Origin: a virus
Length of the DNA: 64,000 bases
Strand: one strand, 5' to 3'
IMG/VR virus record: IMGVR_UViG_3300008267_006855
Coordinates: 1-64,000 of that record
Shown: piece after piece, positions 1 through 28,868 of the stretch
Numbering within the stretch: the first letter of the stretch is position 1
Layout: each line of letters starts with the position of its first letter
The notes under the pieces: generated by a model
What the model was told of the DNA's origin: nothing
The model's database searches: none
What the model saw: the letters and a program-made list of their open reading frames with translations, nothing else
Translations under genes and position numbers: made by a program

Positions 1-314
1 CCTGTTACAGAAAATGTTCCTGAAGATAAAAATGTATGAATTCTATAATTACCAGATGTTGTTATTGTTCCACCTGTTGCTTGAATTCCAGATAAACTTT
101 GAACAGTTACCCAATTATTATTATAATACATCTCCAATACATTTGACGTTGTGTTGACACCAAATGTTCCATTGTTTGGAGTAGATGGTCTATTAGCAGT
201 TGTCCATGAAGGCATAACAACACCATTTGGCGCAACTATTTCAAATTTGCCAGATGTGTCTGCTTCGACACTAAATCCAGTTTGAACTGTTGTTCCTGTT
301 GTTATCGTGGTCAT
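1..314 (-). CDS. Tail fibre/adhesin, N-terminal part (runs off window)
   Basis: Partial gene of which 104 residues are visible; it continues beyond base 1. The start codon overlaps the stop of the preceding gene as ATGA (311-314), which fixes the start. The protein begins MTTITTGTTVQ, has a short segment (residues about 41-70) like the NRPS..GTFGVNTTSNVLEMYYNNNWV strand region of phage fibres, and then a NYRIHTFLSSGTFSV motif. The same motif caps the glycine-rich proteins in this window. In related phage proteins it often comes just before a glycine-rich LVVAGGGGGG block, so such a block may follow outside the window (inference). The first bases of the gene are nearly identical to those of the mini-ORF at 1402-1482, which implies duplication. 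Probably a virion surface protein. Confidence 0.75.
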   Translation of the reverse strand, partial: MTTITTGTTVQTGFSVEADTSGKFEIVAPNGVVMPSWTTANRPSTPNNGTFGVNTTSNVLEMYYNNNWVTVQSLSGIQATGGTITTSGNYRIHTFLSSGTFSVT

Positions 315-1399
315 GCTGTAAATATTCCTGATGATGTAAATAGATGATAGGTAAATCCTCCGCTTGAACTAATAGTTCCACCTGTACCCCTTTGTCCACC
401 CTCATAACGAATAACTACTATACCAGAACCACCATTTCCACCAACACCTCTATAACTTTGAAGTGCTGATTGATCTCCCCCACCTCCACCACCTCCAGTA
501 TTAACTCCACCTGAACCAGCTTGTGTTATAGTACCGTTATTAAGCACAACTTGTCCATTACCTCCAGAATTTCGAGCGCTGCCACCACCTATACCACCTG
601 TTCCACTCTGTCCACGATTGCCGCCACCACCACCACCAATTCCACCATTGCCTCCAGTACCGTTCTCCCAGGATGAACCTCCACCGCCACCTGCATAATA
701 ATATCCATCAAGCCATTGTAATCCATCTCCTCCAGGACCACCACCGACTGATGAAGTGCCATTGCCACCCACAGCACCTGCGCCGCCTCCACCACCAGCA
801 GTTACACCACTAGCTGTAGAACCTCCATTATATCCTTGTCCGCTGGTGCCAGATCCAGGTCCAACATTGTATCCACCAGCACCACCAGATCCACCATTGC
901 CACCTGTTGTACTAGTAGAGTTATCACCGTAAGCACCCCCACCACCTCCACCAATAGCAGTCGTAGCACCAAGATAATTTAGCACACTATTACTACCATT
1001 ATTTGATCTAACAGCCTGACCTTCTAAACCACTACCACCAGCACCAACGGTAATAGTCATTGTTAAACCATTGCCAGATGTTACTGTAATTGGACCACCT
1101 GCGATATAACCACCAGCACCACCGCCGCCACCGTGTCGTGCGCCACCCCCACCCCCACCAGCAACTACAAGATAATTTATGTTATATGACTGAGATGCTA
1201 ATGTAGACCATCCGGTTCCTGTCCATGTTTCTAATATATTGTTAGCTGAGTTCCAAATAATTGTTCCATTGGCTGAAGAAGCAGGCCTTCCATTTGAAGT
1301 TGCAATTCCACCGCCACTTCCACCAGATGCACCGATAGAAAGTAGATTTGCTGATTGAACAGCAAGGTCTGCAAGTCTAGAAACAATGGATATTGTCAT
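311..1399 (-). CDS. Glycine-rich tail adhesin
   Basis: A 362-residue protein. The N-terminus (MTISIVSRLADLAVQ) is a short helical cap. Residues 35-70 carry the fibre segment with NGRPAS..GTIIWNSANN and ETWTGTGWSTLASQ. Residues about 74-330 are a glycine-rich block opening with YLVVAGGGGGG and full of GGxGG runs. The C-terminus has the VIRYEGGQRGTGG and FTYHLFTSSGIF cap. Blocks of this kind belong to a glycine-rich phage-fibre family; in Salmonella phage S16 gp38, glycine-rich motifs form polyglycine-II helices presenting receptor-binding loops (family knowledge). An equivalent fold here is inference. The stop overlaps the next start by ATGA; the start lies 2 bases after the stop of the mini-ORF. 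Confidence 0.85.
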   Translation of the reverse strand: MTISIVSRLADLAVQSANLLSIGASGGSGGGIATSNGRPASSANGTIIWNSANNILETWTGTGWSTLASQSYNINYLVVAGGGGGGARHGGGGGAGGYIAGGPITVTSGNGLTMTITVGAGGSGLEGQAVRSNNGSNSVLNYLGATTAIGGGGGGAYGDNSTSTTGGNGGSGGAGGYNVGPGSGTSGQGYNGGSTASGVTAGGGGGAGAVGGNGTSSVGGGPGGDGLQWLDGYYYAGGGGGSSWENGTGGNGGIGGGGGGNRGQSGTGGIGGGSARNSGGNGQVVLNNGTITQAGSGGVNTGGGGGGGDQSALQSYRGVGGNGGSGIVVIRYEGGQRGTGGTISSSGGFTYHLFTSSGIFTA

Positions 1400-1401
1400 A
1401 G

Positions 1402-1482
1402 TTAAGCTGTAAATGTCCCTGATGATGTAAATGTATGAATTGTATATCCATCCGATGTTGTTACTGTTGTTATCGTGGTCAT
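1402..1482 (-). CDS. 26-residue mini-ORF, relic of a fibre gene
   Basis: A tiny intact ORF beginning MTTITTVTTSDGY and ending THTF-type cap plus SSGTFTA. Its first codons match the start of the gene at 314 almost base for base. Its remainder is only the cap motif that ends the glycine-rich proteins. The start overlaps the upstream stop by ATGA (1479-1482), and the next gene starts 2 bases after its stop, so it sits in the array like a full gene. It is best read as a deletion derivative in which a fibre gene collapsed to its two ends. Whether it is translated into anything useful is unknown. Confidence 0.55.
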   Translation of the reverse strand: MTTITTVTTSDGYTIHTFTSSGTFTA

Positions 1483-2591
1483 GGTACTATAAAACTTCCA
1501 GAAGAATTAAATGTGTGAATAGTATGATCGTTAATTGTTGTTACTGCACCACCTGTTGCTCTTTGTGTTCCTGCATATCTTATAATTACTATACCAGATC
1601 CGCCAGCGCCACCATAATAATTTGCTGAAGTTAATGCAGATCCGCCTCCGCCACCACCACCTCTATTAGTTGTTCCAGCGGTTCCATTTTGAGCACCAGC
1701 TCCACCGTTTCCTCCACCATGAGTTGCATCACCAGCAACAGTTCCTCCACCGCCTCCGCCACCACCAGCGTATCCAACTGATCCGCCAAATATAGAAACT
1801 GTTAATCCTGCTCCTCCGTCACCACCATAACCAGATCCATCAATATTAGAATTTTCTCCTACTCCACCTGCACCACCACCGCCACCGCCAGATGTACCAG
1901 CATTAGCTGCGTAGCTCATACCAGCTCCACCAGCGTATCCTTGACCTGCGGTTCCTGATCCACCTGTAGCAGTTCCATCAGATGCAGTACCACCTCCTCC
2001 ACCTGAACCACCACTTTTTCCGTTATCTGCACCACCGTAACCGTAATCTCCGCCACCGCCACCACCAATAGCTATATAAGAAGCAGTAAATGAACTATTG
2101 GTACCAGATCCAGATTGAACACCTCGATCACTGCCACCTAAATCATATCCAGCTGTTCCTCCAGCACCAACAGTTACAACATATGTTCCAGATGCTAAAG
2201 AAAGTCTACTGCCTGTAGCAAAACTTTCTGTTACTCCATAATACAACAATCCTCCAGCTCCACCGCCACCACCTCTTGTACTCGATGCTCCACCACCACC
2301 TCCACCACCTCCTCCAGCAACAATTAAAACATCAACGCTAAGAGATTGTGATGCTAATGTGGCCCAAGACATTCCGGTCCATGTTTCTAATACACCATTA
2401 GCTGTATTCCAGATAATTGTTCCATTGGCTGTTGTTGCTGTATTTGGTCGACCATTGGATGATATTACACCACCAATTGATATTGTGCCGCTAGTTGAAG
2501 GTAAAACTAAAACAGTATTGCCTGCAACAGAAGGAGCTTCTATGGTTACAGAACCAGAAGTTGCGCCAGCAAGAACTATCTTTCCGCTCAT
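1479..2591 (-). CDS. Glycine-rich tail adhesin
   Basis: About 370 residues from the chosen ATG at 2591 (MSGKIVLAGATSGSV), which overlaps the upstream stop as ATGA; an in-frame ATG at 2603 is an alternative. Residues 1-45 (SVTIEAPSVAGNTVLVLPS) are a common phage-fibre N-terminal motif. A segment with NGRPNTATTANGTIIWNTAN and ETWTGMSWATLASQ follows. Residues about 90-335 are a glycine-rich block opening VLIVAGGGGGGGGG. The C-terminus carries IVIIRYAGTQRATGG and a HTIHTFNSSGSF cap. It is a paralogue of the 311-1399 gene with a different N-terminal module, and is probably a surface-exposed receptor-binding or fibre-tip protein. Confidence 0.85.
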   Translation of the reverse strand: MSGKIVLAGATSGSVTIEAPSVAGNTVLVLPSTSGTISIGGVISSNGRPNTATTANGTIIWNTANGVLETWTGMSWATLASQSLSVDVLIVAGGGGGGGGGASSTRGGGGGAGGLLYYGVTESFATGSRLSLASGTYVVTVGAGGTAGYDLGGSDRGVQSGSGTNSSFTASYIAIGGGGGGDYGYGGADNGKSGGSGGGGGTASDGTATGGSGTAGQGYAGGAGMSYAANAGTSGGGGGGAGGVGENSNIDGSGYGGDGGAGLTVSIFGGSVGYAGGGGGGGGTVAGDATHGGGNGGAGAQNGTAGTTNRGGGGGGGSALTSANYYGGAGGSGIVIIRYAGTQRATGGAVTTINDHTIHTFNSSGSFIVP

Positions 2592-2836
2592 AGAACAACC
2601 CATCTACTTGTTGCTGGAATAGTTATAGTTGAACCGTTAGCAACTGTTATTGGTCCTGTTGATGTAAGACCTAAACTTGCATCAGCAACAACATTTGAAG
2701 TTATTACGGTATTATTTTTCATAATAACATTATTTGCATCAGCAAAACTACCTCCGCCTCCGCCACCTGAAGCAGAAAGCGTACCAACAGCCGTGGTATT
2801 TTTTGCTAGTTTACTAAGGTTTCGTGTTCTGCTCAT
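2588..2836 (-). CDS. Small fibre-associated protein (SRTRNLSKLAK type)
   Basis: An 82-residue protein with a basic N-terminal cap (MSRTRNLSKLAKN), a poly-glycine hinge at about residues 24-29 and a C-terminal strand region ending NGSTITIPATSRWVVL. Small proteins of this pattern recur beside fibre genes of T4-like aquatic phages; their function is unknown. The stop overlaps the next start (ATGA). Only 5 bases separate the start from a GATAAATA octamer. If that octamer is a real late promoter the message would be nearly leaderless, so the upstream gene may instead supply the transcript. Confidence 0.7.
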   Translation of the reverse strand: MSRTRNLSKLAKNTTAVGTLSASGGGGGGSFADANNVIMKNNTVITSNVVADASLGLTSTGPITVANGSTITIPATSRWVVL

Positions 2837-2841
2837 TGGTA

Positions 2842-2849
2842 TATTTATC
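2842..2849 (-). promoter_or_regulatory. Late-promoter-like octamer GATAAATA
   Basis: The minus strand reads GATAAATA, matching the T4-type late box (TATAAATA; NATAAATA has been used for cyanophages). It overlaps the TAA stop of the LamG gene upstream and lies 5 bases before the next ATG. That close spacing makes it a weaker candidate than the others. Confidence 0.35.
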
Positions 2850-5800
2850 TAGCTAAGAATGTGCCAGTTGGTGGAGTAAAGTTTGCTGTGTAACGGGCGA
2901 CTCCTTTGGTGATACGGAAATCATCAATGTAACCATTCATGAGATAAGGAGTTGATATTAAACCTAAATTTAAACCTGATGCTACTAAATCTGATGAGTT
3001 TGTAGCAGAAGACTCCAGAATTCCGTTTATAAACATTCTTAAAGAAGTTCCTGATCTGGTGACAGCTACATGATACCATGTTGAAGCAGCAGTATTGGTT
3101 GTGCTTGACACAAGAGGACCTGCTCCATGAATTCCAAAACCTATTACATTTGTACTTAGTCTGTACATATACCAGGGACCAACAGGAGCACCAGTAGTAC
3201 TAGACCAAACGTCTACTATACCAAGATTAGTTCCTACGGTAGCAAAGTTTACCCATGCTTCAATAGTAAAGTCACCAGTTCTAAAGGTGCAGTTTATTTT
3301 TGTTAAATCTGTATAACTCGCCAAATAATCTCCAGTTCCATCAAAGTACATAGAACCTGTGCCAAATTTTTTCGTTGATGTTACTATTTTCGCATCACCA
3401 ACAGTTTCTAGAACATTACGAGAAGATACATCAACTATAGCGGCATCATTATAATTTAAAAGCATAGCAGTTCCTAAAACAGCAGATGGTGGAGTTGTTG
3501 GAGGAGTAAACGCAGCCGTATATATTGCAGTTCCATTTACTATTCTGAATCCAGACATATATCCTTTAACATATTCTCCGAATGTTCCACTGCTATAATA
3601 TGATCCAATATATATTCCACCACCAGAAAACCCACTTGGTAGATTAGTTGTTGTTCCTGCTACTTCTCCATTGTGATATAAAGTTATAGTAGCTCCATTA
3701 CGAACCAAAGCCACATGATTCCAAGAATTTAACTGTAAATTTTTACCTGCGCTATTACTATTGATTGATGGGGTAGCTGTCCAAGAAGATCCATTACCAA
3801 TATAAACGTGAGTATCTCCAATACCTGTTCTGTTTAAACTTATAGCAAGAGTTGTATGGGGTGTTGTATTAAGTAAAGTTTGTAGAGACTTAGGTAGCAT
3901 ATAAACCCATACTTCTACTGTAAAATTGTTATTCAGATGAAGTAAATTATTTGCTATATTATTATACAAGTAATCTGCATCACCATCAAAATAAACACTA
4001 CCACCATGTGTCGTTCTAGAATATTGTGATGTTGGTTTAAATGGAGAAAAGTTAACTACAGCAGTATCACCATTTCTAGTGATGGCAAAATTATTTGTAG
4101 AATTATCTTTAATGCAATTTGATTGGCAGGTTAATAAAGATGTGTTGGCGATAGCAGTTAATGCTGAAGTTGATGGAGTAAAGTTAGTAGTATAAACAGT
4201 AGTGCCACGAACTATTCTTAAATTACTAATGTAACCTCTGTAGTCTGTATTTTGCACCTTACCTATGTTTAAAGTAGTACCAGAGTTAAAATTTGGTGTT
4301 CCAGATTTTGCTACACTAAAAACTTCTGTACCATTAATATATCCTTTTAGTATACTAGTAGTATTATTATAAACCATAGCAATATGATTCCACGAATTTA
4401 GAGGTACTATACTGGTGCTTACAGCACTAGTAACAGTAGAACCATTCCAATAATAAAAATATAAATTGCCAGATGCATTAGTACCGAATGCCCAATCTGT
4501 TTCAGCAGTACCTGCATTACCATGCGCTACCTGTAGTGGCAAAGAGTTAGTGCCACTAGCAGAATTAGATAAATTATAAACCCACATTTCAATGGTATAA
4601 TTGGTGTTCCACCATTGTATAGTAGAAATATTATATGGTATATTTAAATAATCTCCACTACCATCAAAGTAATTACTCCAACCTGCTGGACTAAATGGCG
4701 AGAATGATCCTTGACTAGAACTGCCTACTTTAACCATTGGAGTAGTAATACCAGAAGTATCAATAAAACTATGGTTGTTAACTGGCTGGCGAGTTTGTAA
4801 TGTAAGAATTTGGGTGTTAGCAACAGCAGTTAATGGTGCTGTGGGAACAGTAATGGTTGTTCCAGAATAAATACCAGTTCCTTTTATAATCCGAGCATTA
4901 CTTATATATCCGTTAAAGGGGTTTGTTCCTGTATTTGATCCTGCAACATAATACTGCCTTGCAGATGTATTTGATGTGTCGCTGAAATTATTTGTTCGCA
5001 CACCATTAACATAAACACTTGTTGTTCCAGATGTTCTTGATACTGCAAAATGAAACCATTGTCTTGCAGCCGCAGAAACACCTGTGTCTCTTACACTTCC
5101 GTCGTAGTACTGAAAAGTGTTGGCGGGCGAAAAACCTATATCTAAATTATTCATATCCCCACCACCGAACAACAATCGTTGGGCTGTGCTTGCTAATGGG
5201 TAGACCCAGCACTCAATAGTAAAATCGCCAGTTCCAAAACCAAAATTATTACTACTTGGTGCAGAAAGATAATCTCCTGTGCCATCAAAATAACCTGATC
5301 CTGTCGTAGTATCTGTTTCTGTGAACGGACCAAATGCAGAAATTTTAACATCACCATTTTTAGTAATAGTAAATGCATTAGTGGAGTTATCAATGAGGCG
5401 ATTGCTTTGGCAGGTCAGTAGTGCGGTGCCAGTTATAGCAGTCAAAGGAGATGTTGGTGGAGTAAAATTAGAAGCGTAAACTTCTGTAGTGGTCACTCTA
5501 AGATTACTAAAATAACCAAGTAATTCTTGTCCTGAATTAAACCCGTCGTAGAAGAACGTTGTAGTGGTAAGAGACGGATTTATAAATCCACTAAAAGTTG
5601 CCTCTAATATTCCATTTACATAAGCTTTGACCGTAGAGCCGTTTCTTACATAAGCAATATGGTACCATTGGTTATTGCTTATGTTGGTTGTGCCGCTGAC
5701 AGATGATCCCGCTTGAAATATGTATATTAAACCAGAGGATATACCTAATATTGTTCTTGAACTAAATTGCCCTCCACTTGCAACATATTGAGCTGCTATT

Positions 5801-6552
5801 GTTGCAGTTGTGTCCGAGGTATAAACCCACCCCTCAACCGTCCAAGTAGAACCATCTAAAAATCTGTTAGTGCTTTGATTTAAGTAATCACCTGTGCCAT
5901 CAAAATAATTACTCCAATTTGTATTGTATGGACTAAATGCTGATGGTTTAGTATCACCGTTTACTGTTATTGCAAAGTTATTTGATGATGCATCTGTAAC
6001 AAAAGTGTTTGCATCTGCATTAATTGCCAATACTGTTCTGTTGAAATATTGTTCTCCAACAGTTATAGTAATACTAAATGTTCTTGGGCTTTCTTGATTT
6101 TCAGCATCAGAAGCAATAACTGTAAAAGAATAAACTGTTTCTTCTGATAAACCTGTCACGGTTCCAGAAATTAATCCACCTGATGATAATGTTAATCCTG
6201 CAGGTAATGTACTTCCAGATTGCAATGCAAATAATGTTGCTTCAGTTGCACTTAGTTGTATTGAGATAGCATCATCAACATTTCCAGAAAGACTAGAAGA
6301 AGTCTGCCAGCTTGGGTTAGCAGAGAATGTAACTCCATTTACTCGAATACCAACACTTCCATCTGTATTAGCCAAATAAACAATATAAGTTCCAGCAGCA
6401 GTAGCTGGTAACTGTGCTCTTACTGTGGTTGAATTTATAAATGTAGTTGATGTCGCGAGAACGTTGTTGATTAAAACCTGACAACCAGAAGCAAATCCAG
6501 ATCCAGTTAATAGTATGTAACCACCTGCTGTATCTACAGCGGTATCATCCAA
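2845..6552 (-). CDS. Giant LamG-array tail fibre protein (copy 1), start codon unclear
   Basis: About 1235 residues. Order: IPT/TIG Ig-like domain (about 1-75; GGYILLTGSGF), He_PIG-like Ig domain (about 80-170; STLPAGLTLSSGGLISGTV), then five laminin-G/ConA-like domains of roughly 200 residues. Each LamG has a YFDGxGDYL start, a WTVEGWVY/FTIECWVY strand, a WxHxAxxR region, an NG turn and a GYISNxRIxxGTxxY end, closing with FTPPT. LamG-like modules bind carbohydrates or proteins, so host-surface binding is inferred. No in-frame ATG exists. The frame is open back to 6612, and TTG at 6552 is the first usable start. The N-terminal cap seen in related fibres is missing, so the gene may be a recombination product. 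Confidence 0.8.
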   Translation of the reverse strand: MDDTAVDTAGGYILLTGSGFASGCQVLINNVLATSTTFINSTTVRAQLPATAAGTYIVYLANTDGSVGIRVNGVTFSANPSWQTSSSLSGNVDDAISIQLSATEATLFALQSGSTLPAGLTLSSGGLISGTVTGLSEETVYSFTVIASDAENQESPRTFSITITVGEQYFNRTVLAINADANTFVTDASSNNFAITVNGDTKPSAFSPYNTNWSNYFDGTGDYLNQSTNRFLDGSTWTVEGWVYTSDTTATIAAQYVASGGQFSSRTILGISSGLIYIFQAGSSVSGTTNISNNQWYHIAYVRNGSTVKAYVNGILEATFSGFINPSLTTTTFFYDGFNSGQELLGYFSNLRVTTTEVYASNFTPPTSPLTAITGTALLTCQSNRLIDNSTNAFTITKNGDVKISAFGPFTETDTTTGSGYFDGTGDYLSAPSSNNFGFGTGDFTIECWVYPLASTAQRLLFGGGDMNNLDIGFSPANTFQYYDGSVRDTGVSAAARQWFHFAVSRTSGTTSVYVNGVRTNNFSDTSNTSARQYYVAGSNTGTNPFNGYISNARIIKGTGIYSGTTITVPTAPLTAVANTQILTLQTRQPVNNHSFIDTSGITTPMVKVGSSSQGSFSPFSPAGWSNYFDGSGDYLNIPYNISTIQWWNTNYTIEMWVYNLSNSASGTNSLPLQVAHGNAGTAETDWAFGTNASGNLYFYYWNGSTVTSAVSTSIVPLNSWNHIAMVYNNTTSILKGYINGTEVFSVAKSGTPNFNSGTTLNIGKVQNTDYRGYISNLRIVRGTTVYTTNFTPSTSALTAIANTSLLTCQSNCIKDNSTNNFAITRNGDTAVVNFSPFKPTSQYSRTTHGGSVYFDGDADYLYNNIANNLLHLNNNFTVEVWVYMLPKSLQTLLNTTPHTTLAISLNRTGIGDTHVYIGNGSSWTATPSINSNSAGKNLQLNSWNHVALVRNGATITLYHNGEVAGTTTNLPSGFSGGGIYIGSYYSSGTFGEYVKGYMSGFRIVNGTAIYTAAFTPPTTPPSAVLGTAMLLNYNDAAIVDVSSRNVLETVGDAKIVTSTKKFGTGSMYFDGTGDYLASYTDLTKINCTFRTGDFTIEAWVNFATVGTNLGIVDVWSSTTGAPVGPWYMYRLSTNVIGFGIHGAGPLVSSTTNTAASTWYHVAVTRSGTSLRMFINGILESSATNSSDLVASGLNLGLISTPYLMNGYIDDFRITKGVARYTANFTPPTGTFLAR

Positions 6553-6591
6553 AACTGTGCCACCACTATTGGTAACTTGTATGTTGGATAT
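6481..6591. repeat. 111-bp direct repeat, copy A
   Basis: Base-for-base identical, by reading, to 10367-10477. It encodes the N-terminal end of both LamG giants and ends exactly where their upstream sequences diverge and the reading frame to the preceding gene is broken. Confidence 0.85.
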
Positions 6592-6604
6592 TTGAGTGCC
6601 ATAG

Positions 6605-9600
6605 TTATCTAACTAAGAATGTGCCAGTTGGTGGGGTAAAGTTTGCTGTGTAACGAGCAACTCCTCTAGTTATACGAAGATCATCAATGTAGCCATTCCA
6701 ATATCTTGGACCACCATATCCTGCCGCAGGACCAAGATATCCAAGACCTATTCGTAATGGGTTTGTATTGACAGCATTAAACGATGTTGTAACATTACTT
6801 GAATGATAACTAACCCCATCAACAAATATTTTTAATACGCTATTATATCTAGATACAGCAATGTGATACCATGTATTAGCTGAAATAGTAACCCCAGTAG
6901 TTGTATAGCTATAATCAGTTCCATCATATCTTTTAAATATAATTTGATTTGATCCTTCAGAACCCAAATAACCTAAAGACCATCCATGATAAACACTACC
7001 ACCATTGGCACCATCTCCTAAAAGTACAAGCATTCTATAATTAGTATTAATATTTGCAAAATTAAACCACCCCTCAACAGTAAAATCTGTTGTACCTAGA
7101 GAAAATTTTTCATCATAAGGAATGACAACATTATCATCTACACCATCAAAATACATAGAACCTGTACCGTATTTTTTAGTTAATGTGGTTATTCCTGCGC
7201 CACCAACAGTTTCTAGAACATTGCGAGAGGAAACATCTACGATGCCAGCATTATTATAATTAAGCAATAAACTAGTATAACTGTTAGCAGTTGTTGGAGA
7301 TGTAGGTAATGTAATATTATTTCCAGAATATCGAATATTTCTAGTGAACATAAAGTCAGACATATAGAAAGCTCCAGCAGGACCTGTCGTAGAAGCACCA
7401 ATTTTAGTTAAATTTCCATTAACTAGGTTAACGTCTCCATAAGCATTAGGGCTTCCACCAGCACCGTATGTAGTATTACATTTCACTCCATTAACATAAA
7501 AAACCCATGTACTGTTGTCTTCTTTTTGCTGGACAATATGATACCATTGTTTTTGTTTCAACACTATGTTTGCATATGCAAACCGATCATTGCTGCCATA
7601 ATCGCGGTGGTGCCACATTAATCCATTAGTACTATCATGATACCAATACCACTCAATGGCTCCAACACTATTGCTTGCTCTTTGTATAATCGTAAATGCG
7701 TTACTTAATGGATATATCCATGCCTCAATCGTCCAAACGAATTGTGTAGTTCCTACCCTATTACCAACAATCGCGATATTTGAATCTGCAAGTGTTAAGT
7801 CAACACTATCACCGCTACCATCAAAATAAACACTACCGCCATGTGTCGTTCTAGAATAGTTTGCTGTTGGTTTAAATGGAGAAAAGTTAACTACTGCAGC
7901 GTCACCGTTTTTAGTGATGGTAAAATTATTTGTAGAGTTATCAATAAATCTATTAGACTGACACATCAACAAAGAAGTATTAGCAATAGCAGTTAATTCT
8001 GAAGTTGGTGGAGTAAAGTTAGTAGTATAAACAGCTGTACCTTTCACTATTCTTAAATTAGAAAGATATCCATTTAAATGTGCGACTCCTTGTACTGCTC
8101 TACCGATAGTTATGCTGCCAGTACTAGTACCCGTTAAATTAGAACCATCTGTTCTTGATAGGGTTTCTATACCATTTTGAAAGATCTTAATCGTAGTTCC
8201 AGATCTACATATAGCTAAATGGACCCAAGTATTTAAAGGAACTACTGTAGAAGAACTATATGTCGTACCGTTGTAATAATATGCACCAGTTGTAATTATA
8301 CCAAAAACAAACGGATTAGCTGCTGCTGCTGATCTTGTATCTATTATATTATTGCCATCAACATCATATCTCGTTAGATAAACATATACCTCTACTGTAA
8401 AATCACCAGTACCAAAGTTACTAGAAAGATATGATACGTTTAAATAATCACCTGTACCATCAAAATAATTACTCCATCCTCCTGGACTAAATGGTGAGAA
8501 TGATCCTTGAGATGCATTACCAACTTTAGTTACTAAAAGATTATTTCTAGATGCATCAATAAAACTATGATTGTTAACTGGCTGACGAGTTTGTAGTGTA
8601 AGAATTTGGGTGTTAGCAACAGCAGTTAATGGAGCGGTAGGTGGTGTGAATGTAGCCGTGTAAACCGCAGAACCAAGCACATATCTGAATCCAGAAATAT
8701 ATCCAGCAAAGTTACCGCCCCCATCATCAGAGTCAGCAGCTATAGCCCAAGCACCGGAATTATTTACTAGTGCCGTATTGCTAACGCTTCCCGTCGCAAC
8801 AGAAACTCCGTTTAAGTAAAGCACCAAGTTGTTTGATGCCGTCCCGTTTCGCACTACTGCAATATGTGACCATGCGTTTAGCGGTGGACTAGTGGATGCG
8901 TTTACATTAACTGCCCAAGATGACCCTGTAGTTGAAGCAAACAATGTCATTGTTCCGCTGTTAATCAAAATTTGTATTGGCGAGTAATCTGTTGCATTGT
9001 TTGTCCGCTTGCTAAATACGCCCAAGAATGAGCCTGTTGCTGTTGGGTATATCCAGCACTCAATGGTGAAGTTAGAACTGCCTGGCTCAAGTGTTGCGCT
9101 ATCAGCGACGGTTAGGTAATCCCCCGCCCCATCAAAATAACCTGATCCTGTCGTAGTATCTGTTTCTGTAAACGGACCAGATGCAGAAACTTTAACATCA
9201 CCGTTTTTAGTGATAGTAAAAGCATTAGTGGAGTTATCAATGAGGCGATTTGATTGGCAAGTCAATAAAGAAGTATTTGTTATAGCAGTAAGTGGTGATG
9301 TTGGAGGTGTAAAATTAGTAGTATAAAAAGATGTTCCCGCTAAAATCCTTAAATTACTAATATAACCATTTAAATAAGCACCTTGGTTAGTTTCACTACC
9401 CACCCATGTAAAAGCTCCTGTTCCAGGTTGGTTGGCTGTATATGTTGCTGTTGCTACAGAAACCCCATTTACATAAAGCGTATACACATTTCCATTTCTC
9501 ACACAAGCCAAGTGGTTCCAAGAACCAGCTGTAATACCATGAGTTCCGCTTACTGCTGTAGTATCACTGTTTGTACCAAATGCTAAAGTAGTTTGTCCAA

Positions 9601-10438
9601 TACGAAATTGCCACCCATCTCCCAAATTCGCTGACCCAACACCAACAATTACCATCCAATTAGAATAACTTCCTGGCCAACTATCTGTTGTTGGCATAGT
9701 AGTTAAATTAACCCACGCTTCTATTGTAAAATTTCCACTGCTTATATTTAATGCCGTTGTTTGTAAGCAATCTCCACTCCCATCAAAGTAATTACTCCAG
9801 TTTGTATTGTACGGGCTAAAAGAAAATGGTCTTGTATCTCCAGCTACCGTAATTGCAAAATTATTAGAAGATGCATCACTCGCAAAGGTGTTACCAACAT
9901 CAGCATTAATTGCCAGTACTGTTCTGTTGAAATATGCGTCACCAACAGTTATAGTAATGCTAAATGTTCTCGGGCTTTCTTGATTTTGAGCATCAGTAGC
10001 AACAACTGTAAATGAGTAAATTGTTTCTTCTACCAATCCAGTTACAGTTCCAGAAATTAATCCACCAGAAGATAATGTTAATCCAGTAGGTAATGTGCTT
10101 CCTGCTTGTAATGCGAATACTGTTGCTTCAGTAGCAATTAATTGTATTGAGATAGCATCATCAACATTTCCAGAAAGACTAGAAGAAGTTTGCCATCCTG
10201 GAGATGCAGAGAATGTAACTCCGTTGACACGGATTCCAACACCACCATCGCTATTGATCAAATAAACAATATAAGTTCCAGCAGCAGTAGCTGGTAACTG
10301 TGCTCTTACTGTGGTTGAATTAACAAATGTCGTTGATGTAGCAGGCACATTATTAATAATAACTTGACAACCAGAAGCAAATCCAGATCCAGTTAATAGT
10401 ATGTAACCACCTGCTGTATCTACAGCGGTATCATCCAA
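6605..10438 (-). CDS. Giant LamG-array tail fibre protein (copy 2), start codon unclear
   Basis: About 1277 residues, a tandem paralogue of the 2845-6552 gene with the same order: IPT/TIG, He_PIG-like, then five LamG domains (YFDGSGDCL, YFDGAGDYL, YFDGTGDYL, YFDGSGDSV, YFDGVDDNV). The ends are very similar (FTPPTGTFLVR against FTPPTGTFLAR) while the middles differ, as expected for adhesins under diversifying selection or module exchange. The first start is a TTG at 10438; the frame is open back to 10489 without ATG. The preceding gene (10477-11070) ends mid-module in another frame, so the two may be a broken single gene. Role inferred: receptor or polysaccharide binding on the virion. Confidence 0.8.
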   Translation of the reverse strand: MDDTAVDTAGGYILLTGSGFASGCQVIINNVPATSTTFVNSTTVRAQLPATAAGTYIVYLINSDGGVGIRVNGVTFSASPGWQTSSSLSGNVDDAISIQLIATEATVFALQAGSTLPTGLTLSSGGLISGTVTGLVEETIYSFTVVATDAQNQESPRTFSITITVGDAYFNRTVLAINADVGNTFASDASSNNFAITVAGDTRPFSFSPYNTNWSNYFDGSGDCLQTTALNISSGNFTIEAWVNLTTMPTTDSWPGSYSNWMVIVGVGSANLGDGWQFRIGQTTLAFGTNSDTTAVSGTHGITAGSWNHLACVRNGNVYTLYVNGVSVATATYTANQPGTGAFTWVGSETNQGAYLNGYISNLRILAGTSFYTTNFTPPTSPLTAITNTSLLTCQSNRLIDNSTNAFTITKNGDVKVSASGPFTETDTTTGSGYFDGAGDYLTVADSATLEPGSSNFTIECWIYPTATGSFLGVFSKRTNNATDYSPIQILINSGTMTLFASTTGSSWAVNVNASTSPPLNAWSHIAVVRNGTASNNLVLYLNGVSVATGSVSNTALVNNSGAWAIAADSDDGGGNFAGYISGFRYVLGSAVYTATFTPPTAPLTAVANTQILTLQTRQPVNNHSFIDASRNNLLVTKVGNASQGSFSPFSPGGWSNYFDGTGDYLNVSYLSSNFGTGDFTVEVYVYLTRYDVDGNNIIDTRSAAAANPFVFGIITTGAYYYNGTTYSSSTVVPLNTWVHLAICRSGTTIKIFQNGIETLSRTDGSNLTGTSTGSITIGRAVQGVAHLNGYLSNLRIVKGTAVYTTNFTPPTSELTAIANTSLLMCQSNRFIDNSTNNFTITKNGDAAVVNFSPFKPTANYSRTTHGGSVYFDGSGDSVDLTLADSNIAIVGNRVGTTQFVWTIEAWIYPLSNAFTIIQRASNSVGAIEWYWYHDSTNGLMWHHRDYGSNDRFAYANIVLKQKQWYHIVQQKEDNSTWVFYVNGVKCNTTYGAGGSPNAYGDVNLVNGNLTKIGASTTGPAGAFYMSDFMFTRNIRYSGNNITLPTSPTTANSYTSLLLNYNNAGIVDVSSRNVLETVGGAGITTLTKKYGTGSMYFDGVDDNVVIPYDEKFSLGTTDFTVEGWFNFANINTNYRMLVLLGDGANGGSVYHGWSLGYLGSEGSNQIIFKRYDGTDYSYTTTGVTISANTWYHIAVSRYNSVLKIFVDGVSYHSSNVTTSFNAVNTNPLRIGLGYLGPAAGYGGPRYWNGYIDDLRITRGVARYTANFTPPTGTFLVR

Positions 10439-10477
10439 AACTGTGCCACCACTATTGGTAACTTGTATGTTGGATAT
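10367..10477. repeat. 111-bp direct repeat, copy B
   Basis: Identical to 6481-6591. Its right-hand edge coincides with the TAA stop of the fibre N-terminal gene at 10477-10479, marking a recombination junction. Confidence 0.85.
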
Positions 10478-11070
10478 TATAAACTGCCATTAACAGAATA
10501 TGTATCTCTTACTTGTGTAACACCGTCAATAACTACTGATGTTTGATTTTTTGAAGATGGTGTAGTAGATAATGTAAATGCTGTCTGAGCACCGTTTGCA
10601 GTAAAAATATCTGATGTAAATGATGCTACTCCTGGTTGTAATGTCCAAGAAATAATAACAACTTCATCATTTGCATCTGACACTTCTTCTAAAATAACTG
10701 TTGTTGCATTTGTTGCTGTAAAATCTGCCGGCAGTATTTTAATACCATTGATATACACATCAACATAACCAACAGTATAACCAGATGATGTGGTAAATGT
10801 AACTTGATTTGCAGAAGCAGTATAGACATCAACAACTCTAGATCCAATACCTTGATTTGTTGATTGTCCTTCTACCCAATTAGAATTATAGTAAACGAAT
10901 AATTTACCATTTGTTGTATTGTACCACATATCACCAGAAGAAGGTGAAACGGGTGCAGTATTTGAAGTTGTAACAGAAGAACCACCACCCAATTCAACTA
11001 ATGGATCTATTTTTTCTTGTGTAATTGCACTATTAGCAATTAAATTAGTTTTTATTTGAGTGAATGCCAT
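10477..11070 (-). CDS. Fibre N-terminal module protein (possibly truncated)
   Basis: A 197-residue protein. The N-terminal cap MAFTQIKTNLIANSAITQEKID is typical of phage fibres. A SSGDMWYNTTNGKLFVYYNSNWVEG segment follows, then two BppU-like strand modules (VDVYTASANQVTF..YVDVYINGIKI..TNATTVILEE, and a second ending SSVVIDGVTQVRDTYSV). It stops at SVNGSL, where related modules continue with a further TLTFS strand pair. The LamG/IPT gene starts 38 bases on in another frame. It is read either as a stand-alone adaptor or as the severed head of the LamG giant. The start codon at 11070 is preceded by A-rich sequence with no clear Shine-Dalgarno site. Confidence 0.75.
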   Translation of the reverse strand: MAFTQIKTNLIANSAITQEKIDPLVELGGGSSVTTSNTAPVSPSSGDMWYNTTNGKLFVYYNSNWVEGQSTNQGIGSRVVDVYTASANQVTFTTSSGYTVGYVDVYINGIKILPADFTATNATTVILEEVSDANDEVVIISWTLQPGVASFTSDIFTANGAQTAFTLSTTPSSKNQTSVVIDGVTQVRDTYSVNGSL

Positions 11071-21124: not shown

Positions 21125-24100
21125 TTATTGTGTTAAAAATGTTAATGTTGGTGCAGTAAAGTTTGCAGTATATCTAGCAAATCTAGTGATACGGAGATCA
21201 TCAATATAACCATTGGTGTCTGCTGTAACAGATCCATTGTAAAATTCTGCGCCAATATAACAAGCACCGCTAAATGTAGATGAAGAAGACCATGTGCTAC
21301 CAGAGGCTGTACCGTTTACATATAGTGTTACAGTAGATCCAGATCTTACTACAGCAATATGAATCCAAGTTTGTCTTGTAGCAGCTGCTCCTGTTATTCT
21401 TATTGCGCCACTACTATATACTGTCCAATTACCTCCTGATACATATATTTCAATACCAGAAGCACCAACAGAATCTCCTAAAGTACAAAGTCTGTAATTA
21501 CCAGTAGCATTCAAATAAGCCCACCCTTCAATAGTAAAATCTCCTGATAATGTAAAAATATCTAAAGCTCGACTAAAAATATAATCTCCAGAACCATCAA
21601 ATGTTAATGAACCTGTGCCAAATTTTTTAGTGGAATTTAAACTAACATTACCAACAGTTTCCATAACATTGCGAGAAGTTATATCAACTATTCCCATAGT
21701 GTTCATATTAGATAGATAATTAATACCAGAGTCATTTGGAAATGTTTGAAGTGCTGGGGTGAAGTCAGCAGTGTATTTTGCAACACCAGTTTGTATTTTA
21801 ACTGATGAAATATATCCTGTGTAATAACCACTTAATGCTCCATCATATGGACCACCAACAGCGACTTTAAATGTTCTTGGTTGTAATGATGATTGTTGAA
21901 CTCTATATGTGTCCAAACTTTGTGCTAATGTTATTGGAGTTACAGAAGAAAGTCCATTGACAAAAATTCTAAGCGTATTGCTTGAATCTCTTGTTATTGC
22001 TATGTGACTCCATTCATTAATTTTTATTGGATTAGATGTAGCAGTTGTTCCACCATGGGAATTCCATACACCAGTAGAGTAACTAAATCCTATAAAACCA
22101 CTGGTGTTGATGTTTAAAAACCAACCTCCATTGTCTCCAGTTTGCCAATAAAATCTTGACATTATATTGGTGTTTAATGATAGAGGATATATCCACAGTT
22201 CTATAGTAAAAGGTCCAGTTGTTATTAATCCACTATCTGTACTATTTGTCTGTAAGTAATCTGATCCATCAAAGTATGCAGATCCACCATGTGTTGCCAA
22301 AGAATATACATCGGTTGGCTTAAATGGAGAAAAATTAACAACTTTAGTATCACCGTTTCTAGTAATAGTAAAATTATTACTAGAATAATCTTTAAATCTA
22401 TTAGATTGGCACATCAACAAAGATGTATTTGCAATCGCTGTTAATTCAGAAGTTGGTGGAGTAAATGCAGATGTATAAACAGCAGTTCCATTTACAACAC
22501 GTAAATTACTAATATACCCAGTAAAAGGAAGATCTGCACTGCTTCTATTACCAAGCATTAAATCTGCGACGTTCGGAAAAGTAGTAGACTGTGTATTTGA
22601 AGCTCTCTCAACCCCATCGATGTATATCTTTAGAGTTCCAGAGTTTTTAACTATTGCAATATGATGCCATCTGTTAACTGAAGTTGAATTAGCTGGCGTG
22701 CTTAATTGCGGGAATCCTGCATGACCTTGACCACCAACCACAAAATTTGTATTATTTAATGAGAAAACTGATCCGTTACTATTTCCACTTGCGTCAGTAG
22801 ACATAATCAGACTATATGCTGCGGCAGAAGTAGCTGTTTTAAATGCCCAAAATTCTATTGTCCAAGCACTGGCAGCGCTTAAATCTGTTAGAACTGTTCT
22901 AGATAAGGTTAATGTATCTCCAGATCCATCAAAGAAATTACTCCATCTTGCTGGACTAAACGGAGAAAATGATCCCATTGAAGGATTACCATTTCGTGTT
23001 ACATTATTTCTTAACGCAGATTCATCAATAAATGTATGGTTATTAATTGATTGAAAATTTTGTAATGTTAACACCGCAGTATTTGCAACGGCTGTTAATT
23101 GAGATGTGGGAGGAGTAAAATTTGATGTGTAAAGAGAAGTACCTCTAACATATCTAAAATTAGACATATAACCTGCTACTGGTTCTCCTCCGTTGCTTTG
23201 TGCTCCAAGCATTAAAGGATTAGCCTGATCAACTAAAGACACACCTGCACTTGATAATGTTATAGTTGTTCCTAGAACACCATTTAAAAATCCTCTTACA
23301 GTTTGTCCAGATCTTGTTATTGCAACGTGATTCCATGCGTTCAATGTCATTGTACCACATGAATAATTACTATTTACGCCATGTACATCCCAAGCTGATC
23401 CAGTATAACTTAAAAAGATATAAAATCCAAGATTGCGTTGAGCAAAGTAAAAGGCACCATAACCTGTTCCATTTTTACTAAACCACGCATAATATGTATT
23501 ACTTGCATTAGATGTTGGATATATCCATGCCTCTATTGTCCAATCTAGATTGCTAGGTTCTAAAGCAGCATTGTCCGCAATAGTTATATAATCACCAGAA
23601 CCATCAAAGAAACCTGATCCTGTTGTAGTATCTGTTTCTGTAAAAGGACCAAATGTTAAAACTTTAACATCACCGTTTTTAGTTATAGTAAAAGCATTAG
23701 TAGAATTGTCAATCAAACGATTTGATTGACAGGTCAGCAACGAGGTGTTAGTTATGTTGGTTAACGGTGCCGTGGGTGGCAAAAATATGGTTGCGCCAAC
23801 AGTTGTGCTTGATGTTTGGTACGCGGCTGGAACCGAACCCTTTACCGACCGAAGGTTTGAAATGTTTCCATTCCAAAAATATACGTTTCCGTAACTAGCA
23901 CCTACTCTATTTGTTGTGCTTGAAAGATTTGAAGATGATGTGAAAGTACCACCCAATACGCCATTAACAAACAACCTAAACACTCCACTCTGTCTTGTAG
24001 CACAAACGTGAAACCAAGTGTTTTTAGTGCAAACAATACTTGTCATTAAGTTTTGGACGTCTTGTCCCAAGTAAAAATAACCGTTTGTGATGTTTATAGA

Positions 24101-25051
24101 GATATTAAATCCATCTGTGAATGGAGAACTTCCACTACGACTATCAAAAATAAATGAGTAATCAGAGAATGTGCCTGTGTAATACACCCATGCTTCTACA
24201 CAAACATCACCTGTTCCTGCATTAGTTACGCCACCAGTGGTAATAAGATAATCTCCCGTACCATCAAAATAATTACTCCAATTTGTATCGTATGGACTAA
24301 AGGTGTGAGGTTTGGTATCACCACTAATAGTTGCAGAAAAACCATTTGGAGATACATCTGTAACAAAACTATTACTATCTCCATTAATTGCTAATACTGT
24401 TCTGTTGAAGTATTCATCTGTAGAAGTTACAGTTAATGTAATTAGAAACTGAAAAGATTGTAATTGTGCATCAGAAATAATAACTGTAAATTGATAAATT
24501 CCGTCTACGGTTGAACCAGATATTAATCCTGAAGAAGATAAAGATAATCCGGCAGGTAATGTACTACCAGATTGCAATTCATAAGTCAATGGTGCGTCAC
24601 CTGTTCCAACAAGTTGAACAGAAACCGTTAATGGTGTTGTTGTGACATAAGATGTTTGAGTAAAATCTGGAGTACCACTTACTAATAAACCTGGTGCCCA
24701 AATTGCACCTGAATTATCAGGATTAAAAACAAATATGTTTGTGTTACCAAGTCCAGATGCAGTTGGTAATGCAACACGAAGCTCTGTTGAGTTTACATAT
24801 GTTACATTTGCCGAAACAACTTTTGAACCAGAAACAAATACATTTGCAGAAGAATTAAAACCTGTTCCAACAATCTTTATATATGAATTAGTTGTTGCTA
24901 CAGCAGTATCATCTAAATTATTAAAATTACTATCAGTAACAATAATTGATGTAATTGCTACAGAGCCAGCACCAATACCTCCACCACCTGTTCTGCTATT
25001 GGTGAATGTAAAATTGGAAACACGATTCTGGCTTGCTGTTTTTAATGACAT
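21125..25051 (-). CDS. Giant LamG-array tail fibre protein (copy 3), intact N-terminus
   Basis: A 1308-residue protein with a proper ATG (25051) overlapping the upstream stop as TAATG. The N-terminal cap MSLKTASQNRVSNFTFTNS precedes IPT/TIG (about 30-115), a He_PIG-like domain (about 120-205) and five LamG domains (YFDGTGDYL, FFDGSGDYI, FFDGSGDTL, YFDGSDYLQ, LTFDGSGDYI), ending FTAPTLTFLTQ. It is the only one of the three LamG giants with a complete start and cap, and so serves as the template for what copies 1 and 2 have lost. Inferred role: adhesin contacting host surface polysaccharide. Confidence 0.85.
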   Translation of the reverse strand: MSLKTASQNRVSNFTFTNSRTGGGGIGAGSVAITSIIVTDSNFNNLDDTAVATTNSYIKIVGTGFNSSANVFVSGSKVVSANVTYVNSTELRVALPTASGLGNTNIFVFNPDNSGAIWAPGLLVSGTPDFTQTSYVTTTPLTVSVQLVGTGDAPLTYELQSGSTLPAGLSLSSSGLISGSTVDGIYQFTVIISDAQLQSFQFLITLTVTSTDEYFNRTVLAINGDSNSFVTDVSPNGFSATISGDTKPHTFSPYDTNWSNYFDGTGDYLITTGGVTNAGTGDVCVEAWVYYTGTFSDYSFIFDSRSGSSPFTDGFNISINITNGYFYLGQDVQNLMTSIVCTKNTWFHVCATRQSGVFRLFVNGVLGGTFTSSSNLSSTTNRVGASYGNVYFWNGNISNLRSVKGSVPAAYQTSSTTVGATIFLPPTAPLTNITNTSLLTCQSNRLIDNSTNAFTITKNGDVKVLTFGPFTETDTTTGSGFFDGSGDYITIADNAALEPSNLDWTIEAWIYPTSNASNTYYAWFSKNGTGYGAFYFAQRNLGFYIFLSYTGSAWDVHGVNSNYSCGTMTLNAWNHVAITRSGQTVRGFLNGVLGTTITLSSAGVSLVDQANPLMLGAQSNGGEPVAGYMSNFRYVRGTSLYTSNFTPPTSQLTAVANTAVLTLQNFQSINNHTFIDESALRNNVTRNGNPSMGSFSPFSPARWSNFFDGSGDTLTLSRTVLTDLSAASAWTIEFWAFKTATSAAAYSLIMSTDASGNSNGSVFSLNNTNFVVGGQGHAGFPQLSTPANSTSVNRWHHIAIVKNSGTLKIYIDGVERASNTQSTTFPNVADLMLGNRSSADLPFTGYISNLRVVNGTAVYTSAFTPPTSELTAIANTSLLMCQSNRFKDYSSNNFTITRNGDTKVVNFSPFKPTDVYSLATHGGSAYFDGSDYLQTNSTDSGLITTGPFTIELWIYPLSLNTNIMSRFYWQTGDNGGWFLNINTSGFIGFSYSTGVWNSHGGTTATSNPIKINEWSHIAITRDSSNTLRIFVNGLSSVTPITLAQSLDTYRVQQSSLQPRTFKVAVGGPYDGALSGYYTGYISSVKIQTGVAKYTADFTPALQTFPNDSGINYLSNMNTMGIVDITSRNVMETVGNVSLNSTKKFGTGSLTFDGSGDYIFSRALDIFTLSGDFTIEGWAYLNATGNYRLCTLGDSVGASGIEIYVSGGNWTVYSSGAIRITGAAATRQTWIHIAVVRSGSTVTLYVNGTASGSTWSSSSTFSGACYIGAEFYNGSVTADTNGYIDDLRITRFARYTANFTAPTLTFLTQ

Positions 25052-25390: not shown

Positions 25391-28096
25391 TTAAGCACCC
25401 ATCAACAAAAATGAACTTAATATATTTATAGGTGATGACCAAGCAACTAATTGTATAGTAGCATATGCAGTTGCTGGTGATGTTAATACTACCGTTAAAC
25501 CGTCAGAAGCAGTATAGTCGCTATCTTTAATTAATTTAACACCGTTGTAGTAAACATCTAAAGCATTTACATCATAACCTTGGCTAGTTGTAAATGTAGT
25601 CTGATTTGCAGTTGCAATAAATGTGTCTGTTACCTTTATACCACCTGCACTAATTATACCAGTATCTAATCTTACAGAAGATCCTGTAATGTCTAACCAG
25701 TATGCATTTGTACCATCCGATGTATAACGATACATAACATCTGTGGTTGTTTTATACCATATATCACCAACAACAGGATTCAATGGTGCAGTAGCAGAAC
25801 TGGTTGATCTGATGCCTCCACCAACAACATTACCCGTAACTACTAGTGTATTATTAGATGTATAATAATTTAGATTGGCATTGTTGGCAATATATCCAGC
25901 AGAATTAACCGTCAGTACATTATTAGGTGCAAAACCACCAAGAGATACTACACCACCTCCACCACCAGTATTTGCTTGATTAAATGCAGCTTGAGTATAA
26001 GCTAATACATCATAACCATTAATGAAAACAGAATTACTAATTAAATTAGCTTTTAATGTTGAAATTCTAAGTGATGCATGATTTGGATCTAATAGATTAG
26101 TACCTTGAATTTCTGGCGTATAATTATCTAACAAATACCAAGTATTTGTAGAAACATCTTTAATGAGACCGGTATGTTTAAGAGTATCACTTTCTATATA
26201 ATGTGCAACAAAACCAATATCGAGTGCATTACCTGTGTTATTGTTTGCAAGAAGAATAATAGGATCATTGATAACAACATTATTTGAAGTATAAGTTGTT
26301 GTGTTTCCAGAAACAAATAAATTTCCTGTAACTGTTAAGTCACCTGAGATTGTACCACCAGAAGAATTTAATTTTGTATTGGCAGTATTGAATGAAGCTT
26401 GTGCAAGAACATTTGCAGAATTGGCCTGAGCATATGCACCAAAGGAATAATTATTAATTGCATCTAATCTGGTATTCTGAGTGTTATCGACACCTTGAAT
26501 TATGATTGTGTTGGACGATGCTGAGTTTGCTGTATTTCTGGCATATTGATCAACAGAAGAACCTACATTAATATTATTTGCAGCATTAAAAGCAGCTTGC
26601 GCTAATGAATTTGCAGAGTTGGCTTTGTCATAAGCATTTTGAGCAAGCGTTGCAGTTGGAGACCAAACAGATAAAGCATCGGATGCAACCGCATATGCCA
26701 AATTTGCCTGAGCATATGAACTATTAGCGTAAGAATTTATGGCTATAATTCTGGTATTTTGCCAAGTATCTACACCTTGAGTATAAATTGTGTTTGCACT
26801 TGCTGAGTTGGCTGTTAATCTAGCAACGTTGTCAATTGCATATTCACCACCAGTATTTGCTTTATTAAATGCGGCTTGTGCTAGTACATTAGCAGAGTTT
26901 GCTTTATCAAATGATGCCTGAATATAGGTATTTTGTGTTATATTGACTTCTGCTAATTTTGATGCCAATATATCAGCGGCTTCTGCCATGTTGTAAGCAG
27001 AATTGGCTTTATCAAATATTGTTTTACCATTAAATGTGATGCTCTTATATGGTGTATCAGACGGATTGGTTGTTATTACAATACCATTTGCACCATTGAT
27101 ACGGATAATATCATCACCAACCGCATTAAGATCACCTTGACCAACAACATTCCATGTTGAGAATGTACTGCCTAAAGAAATCTTTACATTACCTTCTCCC
27201 ATATCATAGACATGGAAACCAGTAAATGTATCAAATGCAATTGTAGAAACATTAGAAACAATATTACTATAAACATTTGAACTGTCTATAGAAGCAACTT
27301 TGAGCATTGGACTGGCATTATTTGCCTTATCAAATGCAGCTTGTATTCTGGTGTTTTGTGTGGTGTCTACACCTTGTATTACGGCAATATCAGCTGCATT
27401 TGTATTTGCTTTATTGAAAGCAGATTGTGCCAAATTGTTTGCAGCATTGGCCTGTGTATAAGCACCGCCTGCATATGAATCTACTGCTGTAATCCTAGTA
27501 TTCTGTGTCGCATCTACACCTTGAGTGTAAACGGTATTTGAAGAAGCAGAGTTGGCTGTATCTCTAGAGTACTGATCTATTGCATTATTGGCTTTATTAA
27601 ATGCAGACTGTGCTAAATTATTCGCTGCAATTGCTTGAGTGTATGCACCATCAGCATATGAATCTACTGCTGCAATTCTGGTATTTTGCCATGTATCAAC
27701 ACCTTGAGTATAGATGGTGTTAGATGTTAGAGAATTTAATTTATCGGTTAAATCGATACCATTTACAATGACAGATGTTGCAATTAAATTGCCTTTAAAA
27801 TAATCTGCTTGAATATTTGCACGACTAAAACTACTGTCGTTCAAATCAATTAAAGAATTAGAAGTTACACCTGGTGTGTAACCATCAAAAAATAAAAATT
27901 CTTTTAAATTTGGATCTCTAAATAATCCTGCTTTACGAACTGTACCATCATTATATGTTCCAACAAAACCAAAATCTATAGCATCACTTAATGTATTGTT
28001 GTTTGCAAGAAGTAATAGTGATGCATCGATGTCTATACTTGCTGTATTTAAAGTTACTTCGGTACCAAGAACTGTTAAATTTCCTGTTACAGTCAA
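25391..28096 (-). CDS. Long fibre shaft protein, 3' part of a frame-broken gene
   Basis: 901 residues from a TTG at 28096; the frame is open back to 28285 without ATG. The upstream in-frame stretch reads VANTASANTVYTQGVD.., clearly fibre sequence. The main body carries five QGVDxxQNTRI repeats and many AFNKANSA..LAQA 14-residue repeats (shaft), and two LLANNNT..DIGFVxxY modules where the fibre text reads like a head-to-tail set of knitted beta modules. The C-terminus has the LGGFAPNNVLTVNSAGYI/VVGGG, GDIWYKTTTDVMYRYT and BppU-like modules. It probably belongs with 28251-28868 as one fibre of about 1158 residues, after a one-base frame difference near 28274. Confidence 0.75.
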   Translation of the reverse strand: MTVTGNLTVLGTEVTLNTASIDIDASLLLLANNNTLSDAIDFGFVGTYNDGTVRKAGLFRDPNLKEFLFFDGYTPGVTSNSLIDLNDSSFSRANIQADYFKGNLIATSVIVNGIDLTDKLNSLTSNTIYTQGVDTWQNTRIAAVDSYADGAYTQAIAANNLAQSAFNKANNAIDQYSRDTANSASSNTVYTQGVDATQNTRITAVDSYAGGAYTQANAANNLAQSAFNKANTNAADIAVIQGVDTTQNTRIQAAFDKANNASPMLKVASIDSSNVYSNIVSNVSTIAFDTFTGFHVYDMGEGNVKISLGSTFSTWNVVGQGDLNAVGDDIIRINGANGIVITTNPSDTPYKSITFNGKTIFDKANSAYNMAEAADILASKLAEVNITQNTYIQASFDKANSANVLAQAAFNKANTGGEYAIDNVARLTANSASANTIYTQGVDTWQNTRIIAINSYANSSYAQANLAYAVASDALSVWSPTATLAQNAYDKANSANSLAQAAFNAANNINVGSSVDQYARNTANSASSNTIIIQGVDNTQNTRLDAINNYSFGAYAQANSANVLAQASFNTANTKLNSSGGTISGDLTVTGNLFVSGNTTTYTSNNVVINDPIILLANNNTGNALDIGFVAHYIESDTLKHTGLIKDVSTNTWYLLDNYTPEIQGTNLLDPNHASLRISTLKANLISNSVFINGYDVLAYTQAAFNQANTGGGGGVVSLGGFAPNNVLTVNSAGYIANNANLNYYTSNNTLVVTGNVVGGGIRSTSSATAPLNPVVGDIWYKTTTDVMYRYTSDGTNAYWLDITGSSVRLDTGIISAGGIKVTDTFIATANQTTFTTSQGYDVNALDVYYNGVKLIKDSDYTASDGLTVVLTSPATAYATIQLVAWSSPINILSSFLLMGA
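25423..25430 (-). promoter_or_regulatory. Late-promoter octamer TATAAATA (perfect)
   Basis: Exact T4 late box on the minus strand, 42 bases upstream of the ATG at 25380. It lies inside the 3' end of the preceding fibre gene. Confidence 0.55.
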
Positions 28097-28250: not shown

Positions 28251-28868
28251 TTAGCCGATGCTGTATTTGCAACAATTGTTGTTTGCTAAAAATATTATTG
28301 GATTATCAATCTGTAAGCTGTTGGTATTTGTATATGTGGTGTTGCCTTCAATTATAAAATCATCACCTACAGTTAAACTACCAGTTATATTAACATTACC
28401 TGTAACTGTACCACCAGAACTTACAAATGTATTGCCAACATTGGCTGCAGCAAATGCCGCATTGATTCTTGTATTTTGTGCCGCATCAACACCTTGTGTA
28501 TAAACAGTATTGGCTGCAATTGTATTTGCAATGTCTCTTACAATCTGATCTATATCATCAGAAAGAGCATTGATAGTTATTGTTTTTGATGATGAGTTTG
28601 TTGAGATGCTTACATTATTACCTGCAACAATACTTAAAGTATCCGTTGGTGAAGTTGCAAGTATTAATGTTGAGTTTGAATTGATTGTGGCAAAAGAGTC
28701 TGGTTGTATGCCAACCAGATCCAGATCAAATGATGATATTTGATTATTAGCTCTCTTAAAAAATAATTTACCGTCAGCATAGTTAAGAGCTAATTCTCCA
28801 AACTGTAGACTTGACGGTATATTTCCTGTTACGCCAGAGCTTTTTAAACGAATTTTTGTATTTGCCAT
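28251..28868 (-). CDS. Fibre protein, 5' part of a frame-broken gene
   Basis: A 205-residue protein. The N-terminal MANTKIRLKSSGVTGNIPSS and ELALNYADGKLFFKR match the receptor-fibre cap also seen in 29410-31074. It continues with IVRDIANTIAANTVYTQGVD..QNTRI..AAFAAANVGNTFV and SGGTVTGNVNITGSLTV, and ends IIFLANNN followed by out-of-family CCKYSIG. Elsewhere in this window LANNN continues as T..DIGFV. Here the following bases in the next frame read VANTASANTVYTQGVD, so the gene appears joined out of frame to the next module. Either the fibre is truly truncated or the assembly has a one-base error at about 28274. Confidence 0.7.
   Translation of the reverse strand: MANTKIRLKSSGVTGNIPSSLQFGELALNYADGKLFFKRANNQISSFDLDLVGIQPDSFATINSNSTLILATSPTDTLSIVAGNNVSISTNSSSKTITINALSDDIDQIVRDIANTIAANTVYTQGVDAAQNTRINAAFAAANVGNTFVSSGGTVTGNVNITGSLTVGDDFIIEGNTTYTNTNSLQIDNPIIFLANNNCCKYSIG

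Follow-up and report, generated by a model that had tools for sequence, protein, structure and literature searches.

Architecture of the LamG fibre genes

The window, the whole 64,000-nt stretch of viral DNA analyzed here, contains three paralogous LamG fibre genes, two of them adjacent (Table 1). The encoded module begins with an Ig-like (IPT-like) domain, followed by a He_PIG domain and five Laminin_G_3 domains. The He_PIG and LamG domains were assigned by Pfam, whereas the Ig-like/IPT-like label is our own reading of the sequence, as this domain gave no Pfam hit. The Laminin_G_3 assignment is strong: each of LamG1, LamG2, and LamG3 has five such stretches, which score 266-292 bits against a curated cut-off of 27.6. 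Matches to the baseplate wedge and tail tube cap are present at 53151-54983 and 60557-61537. The phage is T4-like and contractile-tailed, and the LamG genes have the genome context of its baseplate/fibre region. The first 41,000 positions of the window (1-41000) contain a very long run of fibre-like and glycine-rich paralogues of the adaptor-plus-variable-module type, with many repeats of 60-90%; this is an expanded fibre locus.

Table 1. Coordinates of the LamG fibre genes, repeat copies, and frame-breaking junctions in the window
Feature	Coordinates	Strand	Description and basis
LamG1 fibre gene	2845..6601	-	Adaptor start (ATG 6601-6599), Ig-like, He_PIG, five LamG_3; 5' end incomplete; Pfam, L003
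Identical block, copy 1	6479..6592	-	First 37 codons of the LamG1 Ig-like (IPT-like) module; 114-bp maximal exact repeat
Junction 1	6592..6594		88 nt of L003 absent; ~29 LamG1 adaptor codons gone, frame shifted
LamG2 fibre gene	6605..11070	-	Two ORFs in the window (10477-11070, 6605-10438); one gene in the relative L021
Identical block, copy 2	10365..10478	-	LamG2 counterpart of copy 1 (first 37 module codons); 114-bp maximal exact repeat
Junction 2	10477..10480		197-aa gene meets LamG2 without the ~130 nt (~44 codons) seen in the L021 alignment
LamG3	21125..25051	-	Intact paralogue; own adaptor MSLKTASQNRVSN... ahead of the Ig-like module; Pfam
Third frame-breaking junction	28274..28275		335 nt absent, blunt; 9 SNPs in the next 160 bp; L066/G002 and L067/G003

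An identical block at the start of the module

A repeat scan of the window identified the 114-bp block shared by LamG1 and LamG2 as its maximal exact repeat. The next longest exact repeats, of 63 and 48 bp, also come from this paralogue pair. The block encodes the module start ISNIQVTNSGGTVLDDTAVDTAGGYILLTGSGFASGC... and is much more uniform than its flank in the aligned codons of the two genes. Over 198 gaplessly aligned codons, LamG1 and LamG2 differ at 58, with none of the differences in the first 37 (P ~5e-7 under random placement; longest-run permutation p ~1e-5), so the identity of the block is not due to chance. On the simplest reading, the block would be the start of a duplicated module, kept identical through recent duplication or gene conversion.

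The initial annotation had described the block as a 111-bp identity (6481-6591 and 10367-10477), and direct comparison agrees, with a true length of 114 bp. It had the reading frames break at the right edge of the block. That position holds, but with LamG1, LamG2, and the 197-aa gene upstream of LamG2 all encoded on the minus strand, the right edge corresponds to the upstream (5') boundary of the module. The ORF list confirms that both LamG frames start only with TTG (6552 and 10438). Both open frames reach a stop with no ATG on the way, and, as had also been claimed, the upstream gene at 10477-11070 stops at once, its TAA overlapping the block edge. The third copy (21125-25051) had been offered as an in-frame model for the other two; it is a paralogue with a different adaptor and not their intact version.

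Sequence absent at the two module junctions

The continuity from adaptor to module is absent in the window for LamG1 and LamG2, and it is present elsewhere, namely in the gene at the LamG1 position of contig L003, in L021, and in other relatives. L003 (IMGVR_UViG_3300008459_011716) is a 4,086-bp contig from a different metagenome. Its positions 201-4086 are 100% identical to window positions 6593-10478 over 3,886 bp, and its positions 1-113 are likewise identical to window positions 6481-6593. The stretch of L003 that separates its first block copy from the LamG2 stop contains 88 nt that the window is without. In the L003 gene at the LamG1 position, an ATG directly after the LamG2 stop opens an unbroken frame that encodes MALTKITSNVIANNAVTQSKIDSSVELGGGGIK-ISNIQVTNSGG. 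The window retains this ATG right after the stop (minus strand, 6601-6599), one frame off the LamG1 frame, and a few bases later its sequence jumps to the block edge. Since 88 is not a multiple of three, the LamG1 frame is lost. The joined ends at 6593 share 1 nt. L003 itself runs from one block copy to the other, which means that another assembly also broke at the block edges. With terminal repeats of 112 bp, L003 (1-4086) could pass for a small circular virus; it consists of a single LamG fibre gene flanked on both sides by the module repeat.

At junction 2 (10478/10479), the comparison is made with L021 (IMGVR_UViG_3300035703_000425), a relative at 73-77% protein identity, as L003 stops at the block edge. 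The counterparts of the 197-aa gene and the LamG gene form one 1,051-aa ORF in L021. Its residues 1-197 match the 197-aa gene of the window at 73%, and its residues from 242 onward match LamG2 from ISNIQVT, which leaves ~44 residues (around LTFSEAPGNGAVIEVTTAKGSAFLTTSYNDLTDKPDLTGLGIK in L021) missing from the window. By this comparison, LamG2 never had a start of its own, and the gene begins where the 197-aa gene does. The product of 197 aa appears to break off within a domain; its weak DUF4183 match, which is below the curated cut-off, is cut at position 54 of the 74-position profile. Exact-pattern scans with the end of the 197-aa gene, LamG1-specific DNA, and a second shared stretch yielded L003 and no further contig of this phage. 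Because no identical contig spans junction 2, the missing length is given only as ~130 nt, from L021.

About ten relatives of the module were found. All of them have in-frame ATG starts and differing adaptors, and none is broken, which indicates that the module boundary is a normal site of adaptor swapping.

A third frame-breaking junction

A similar break is present at 28274/28275, where a 205-aa ORF (28251-28868) is followed by a 901-aa ORF with a TTG start (25391-28096). In G003 (L067; 3300008448_000141), the same fibre gene is a single 1270-aa ORF. The 335 nt missing from the window are present in both G003 and G002 (L066; 3300031758_000123). G002 and G003 match the window at 99.8-100% over ~38 and ~47 kb and are IMG/VR contigs of the same phage. 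Their coverage of the window starts at 26143 and 16509, respectively, and continues to higher positions, with the LamG pair outside their range. No other structural differences between the window and these contigs were found over 16.5-64 kb.

The ends joined at 28274 have 0 nt of shared sequence. Nine SNPs, mostly silent, lie at 28317-28434 (~120 bp) relative to both G002 and G003, whereas the kilobases around are nearly identical. This suggests that the sequence switches at the join to the allele of another strain. The SNP cluster was also considered as a copy of a paralogue in the window, which was rejected as it had no other match there.

Origin of the frame breaks

The window has three frame-breaking losses, two of which abut the 114-bp exact repeat while the third adjoins a stretch that varies between strains, and the corresponding sequences are intact elsewhere; assembly joins are therefore the best explanation. 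This reading agrees with the break of L003, in another assembly, at these very repeat edges. Other assemblies hold the 88 nt (L003) and the 335 nt (G002 and G003) that the window lacks, with junction 2 covered by the relative L021. We infer that the losses are assembly joins and not real deletions in the strain of the window. An ordinary duplicated fibre module with blunt assembly joins at repeats and strain-variable spots very probably accounts for the locus.

In the proposed mechanism, a T4-like phage carries tandem paralogous tail-fibre genes, each with a short, swappable N-terminal adaptor ahead of a common module. From family knowledge, the adaptor probably docks the fibre to the baseplate, and the module of Ig-like/IPT-like, He_PIG, and LamG domains probably touches the host surface, with binding by the LamG repeats. 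The module would have been duplicated between two adjacent genes, its first 114 bp being held identical by recent duplication or gene conversion. If short-read metagenome assembly is assumed, a 114-bp exact repeat would produce a branch point exactly at the repeat edges. An assembler or scaffolder may then have joined contigs there and dropped 88 nt and ~130 nt beside the block edge, leaving LamG1 without most of its adaptor and the LamG2 gene split into two ORFs.

The initial annotation took the frame breaks as the signature of recombination inside a duplicated module. The duplicated module stands, and recombination or gene conversion seems to have homogenized its 5' 114 bp. That the frame breaks are the signature of this recombination is not supported; sequence is missing beside the block (88 nt by L003, ~44 residues by L021). 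Assembly error, which was to be recognized by a continuous frame, is borne out at LamG1 by L003, that is, at one of the two junctions, and the same fault appears a third time at 28274.

Alternatively, the deletions may be real in the strain, with recombination at the module boundary having removed the adaptor and left two headless LamG genes as pseudogenes or a recombination reservoir. Fibre loci recombine often, the block is homogenized, and the 28274 junction adjoins a divergent allele, where strain heterogeneity would also be expected of a real recombinant. We nevertheless regard real deletions as unlikely. They would need three frame-breaking losses in one genome whose tail module is otherwise intact, no relative has such a break, and for two of the three junctions an intact version exists in contigs of the same phage. 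In addition, at each block copy the loss starts no more than 1 nt from the repeat edge, as would be expected of assembly-graph boundaries. A further version, in which the deletions segregate in a real phage population and module-edge recombination turns LamG fibres off and on through loss and regain of the adaptor, as a host-range system resembling phase variation, seems quite improbable.

Programmed ribosomal frameshifting or a non-ATG start could also make the frames continuous, with the block conserved as a signal. At both copies, the upstream frame does enter the block offset by one base from the LamG frame, with the same direction of offset, and the block is conserved at the nucleotide level. 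However, L003 and every relative keep one frame with no shift, and at LamG1 this explanation is contradicted by L003. Inspection of the two junctions revealed no canonical X XXY YYZ slippery heptamer, and neither L021 nor the other relatives share a frame change. The 197-aa product would moreover end inside a domain. We give frameshifting hardly any credence. It is just as implausible that the block is a dedicated recombination or phase-variation site at which cassettes switch, joining the adaptor gene to alternative LamG genes: two modules that follow one adaptor gene have the direct repeat at their 5' edges, and copy-to-copy recombination would swap the LamG partner, but the repeat scan found no inverted repeats of at least 60 bp in 1-40000, the downstream LamG gene in L003 has its own adaptor so that no silent cassette is needed, and a similar identical 5' block occurs in the intact tandem fibre genes of L022.

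Comparison with known systems

The locus can be compared with intact loci of related phages. The fibre genes of L021 (1388-3064 and 3068-6226) resemble those of the window in their adaptor and their Ig-like/He_PIG/LamG module, and they too are neighbours that share this module. The next gene in L021 begins with MALTKITSNVIANNAV, like LamG1 in L003. Unlike those of the window, the L021 genes are uninterrupted, and their locus has no exact repeat longer than 29 bp. L022 has tandem fibre genes (5806 and 7351) that, as in the window, are adjacent and share an identical 5' block that ends abruptly. Both are intact with ATG starts, unlike in the window, and the block corresponds to the adaptor and not to the Ig-like module. 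This 83-bp block of L022 (5801-5883 and 7346-7428) is an example of homogenized gene starts without frame breaks in a related phage.

Among isolate phages, none covers 80% of the fibre query, and all matches are below 60% identity; a blastn search of the junction region against isolate phages gave no match. The adaptor and fibre domains of the 197-aa gene and of the fused L021 gene give distant matches annotated "tail fiber" among modular fibre genes of aquatic phages (PHROG tail fibre families 21412 and 9729; phages of Pelagibacter and Roseobacter), so that the fibres are only remotely related to those of isolates. A literature search on LamG phage fibres gave nothing closer in the titles and abstracts listed.

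The underlying biology, with adaptor swapping and homogenized module starts between tandem fibres, is real and of a familiar kind. The locus offers a worked case of how a short exact repeat in a pair of fibre paralogues can break genes falsely in one contig and give another the false look of a "circular" mini-genome. A survey of pseudogenes, frameshifts, or small circular viruses would be led astray by either artefact. Among viral metagenome contigs, false-positive genomes with terminal repeats are reported in the CheckV paper (PMC8116208). L003 is alike, its terminal repeat being the fibre-module repeat; unlike in the CheckV cases, the same repeat here also coincides with lost sequence in a second contig.
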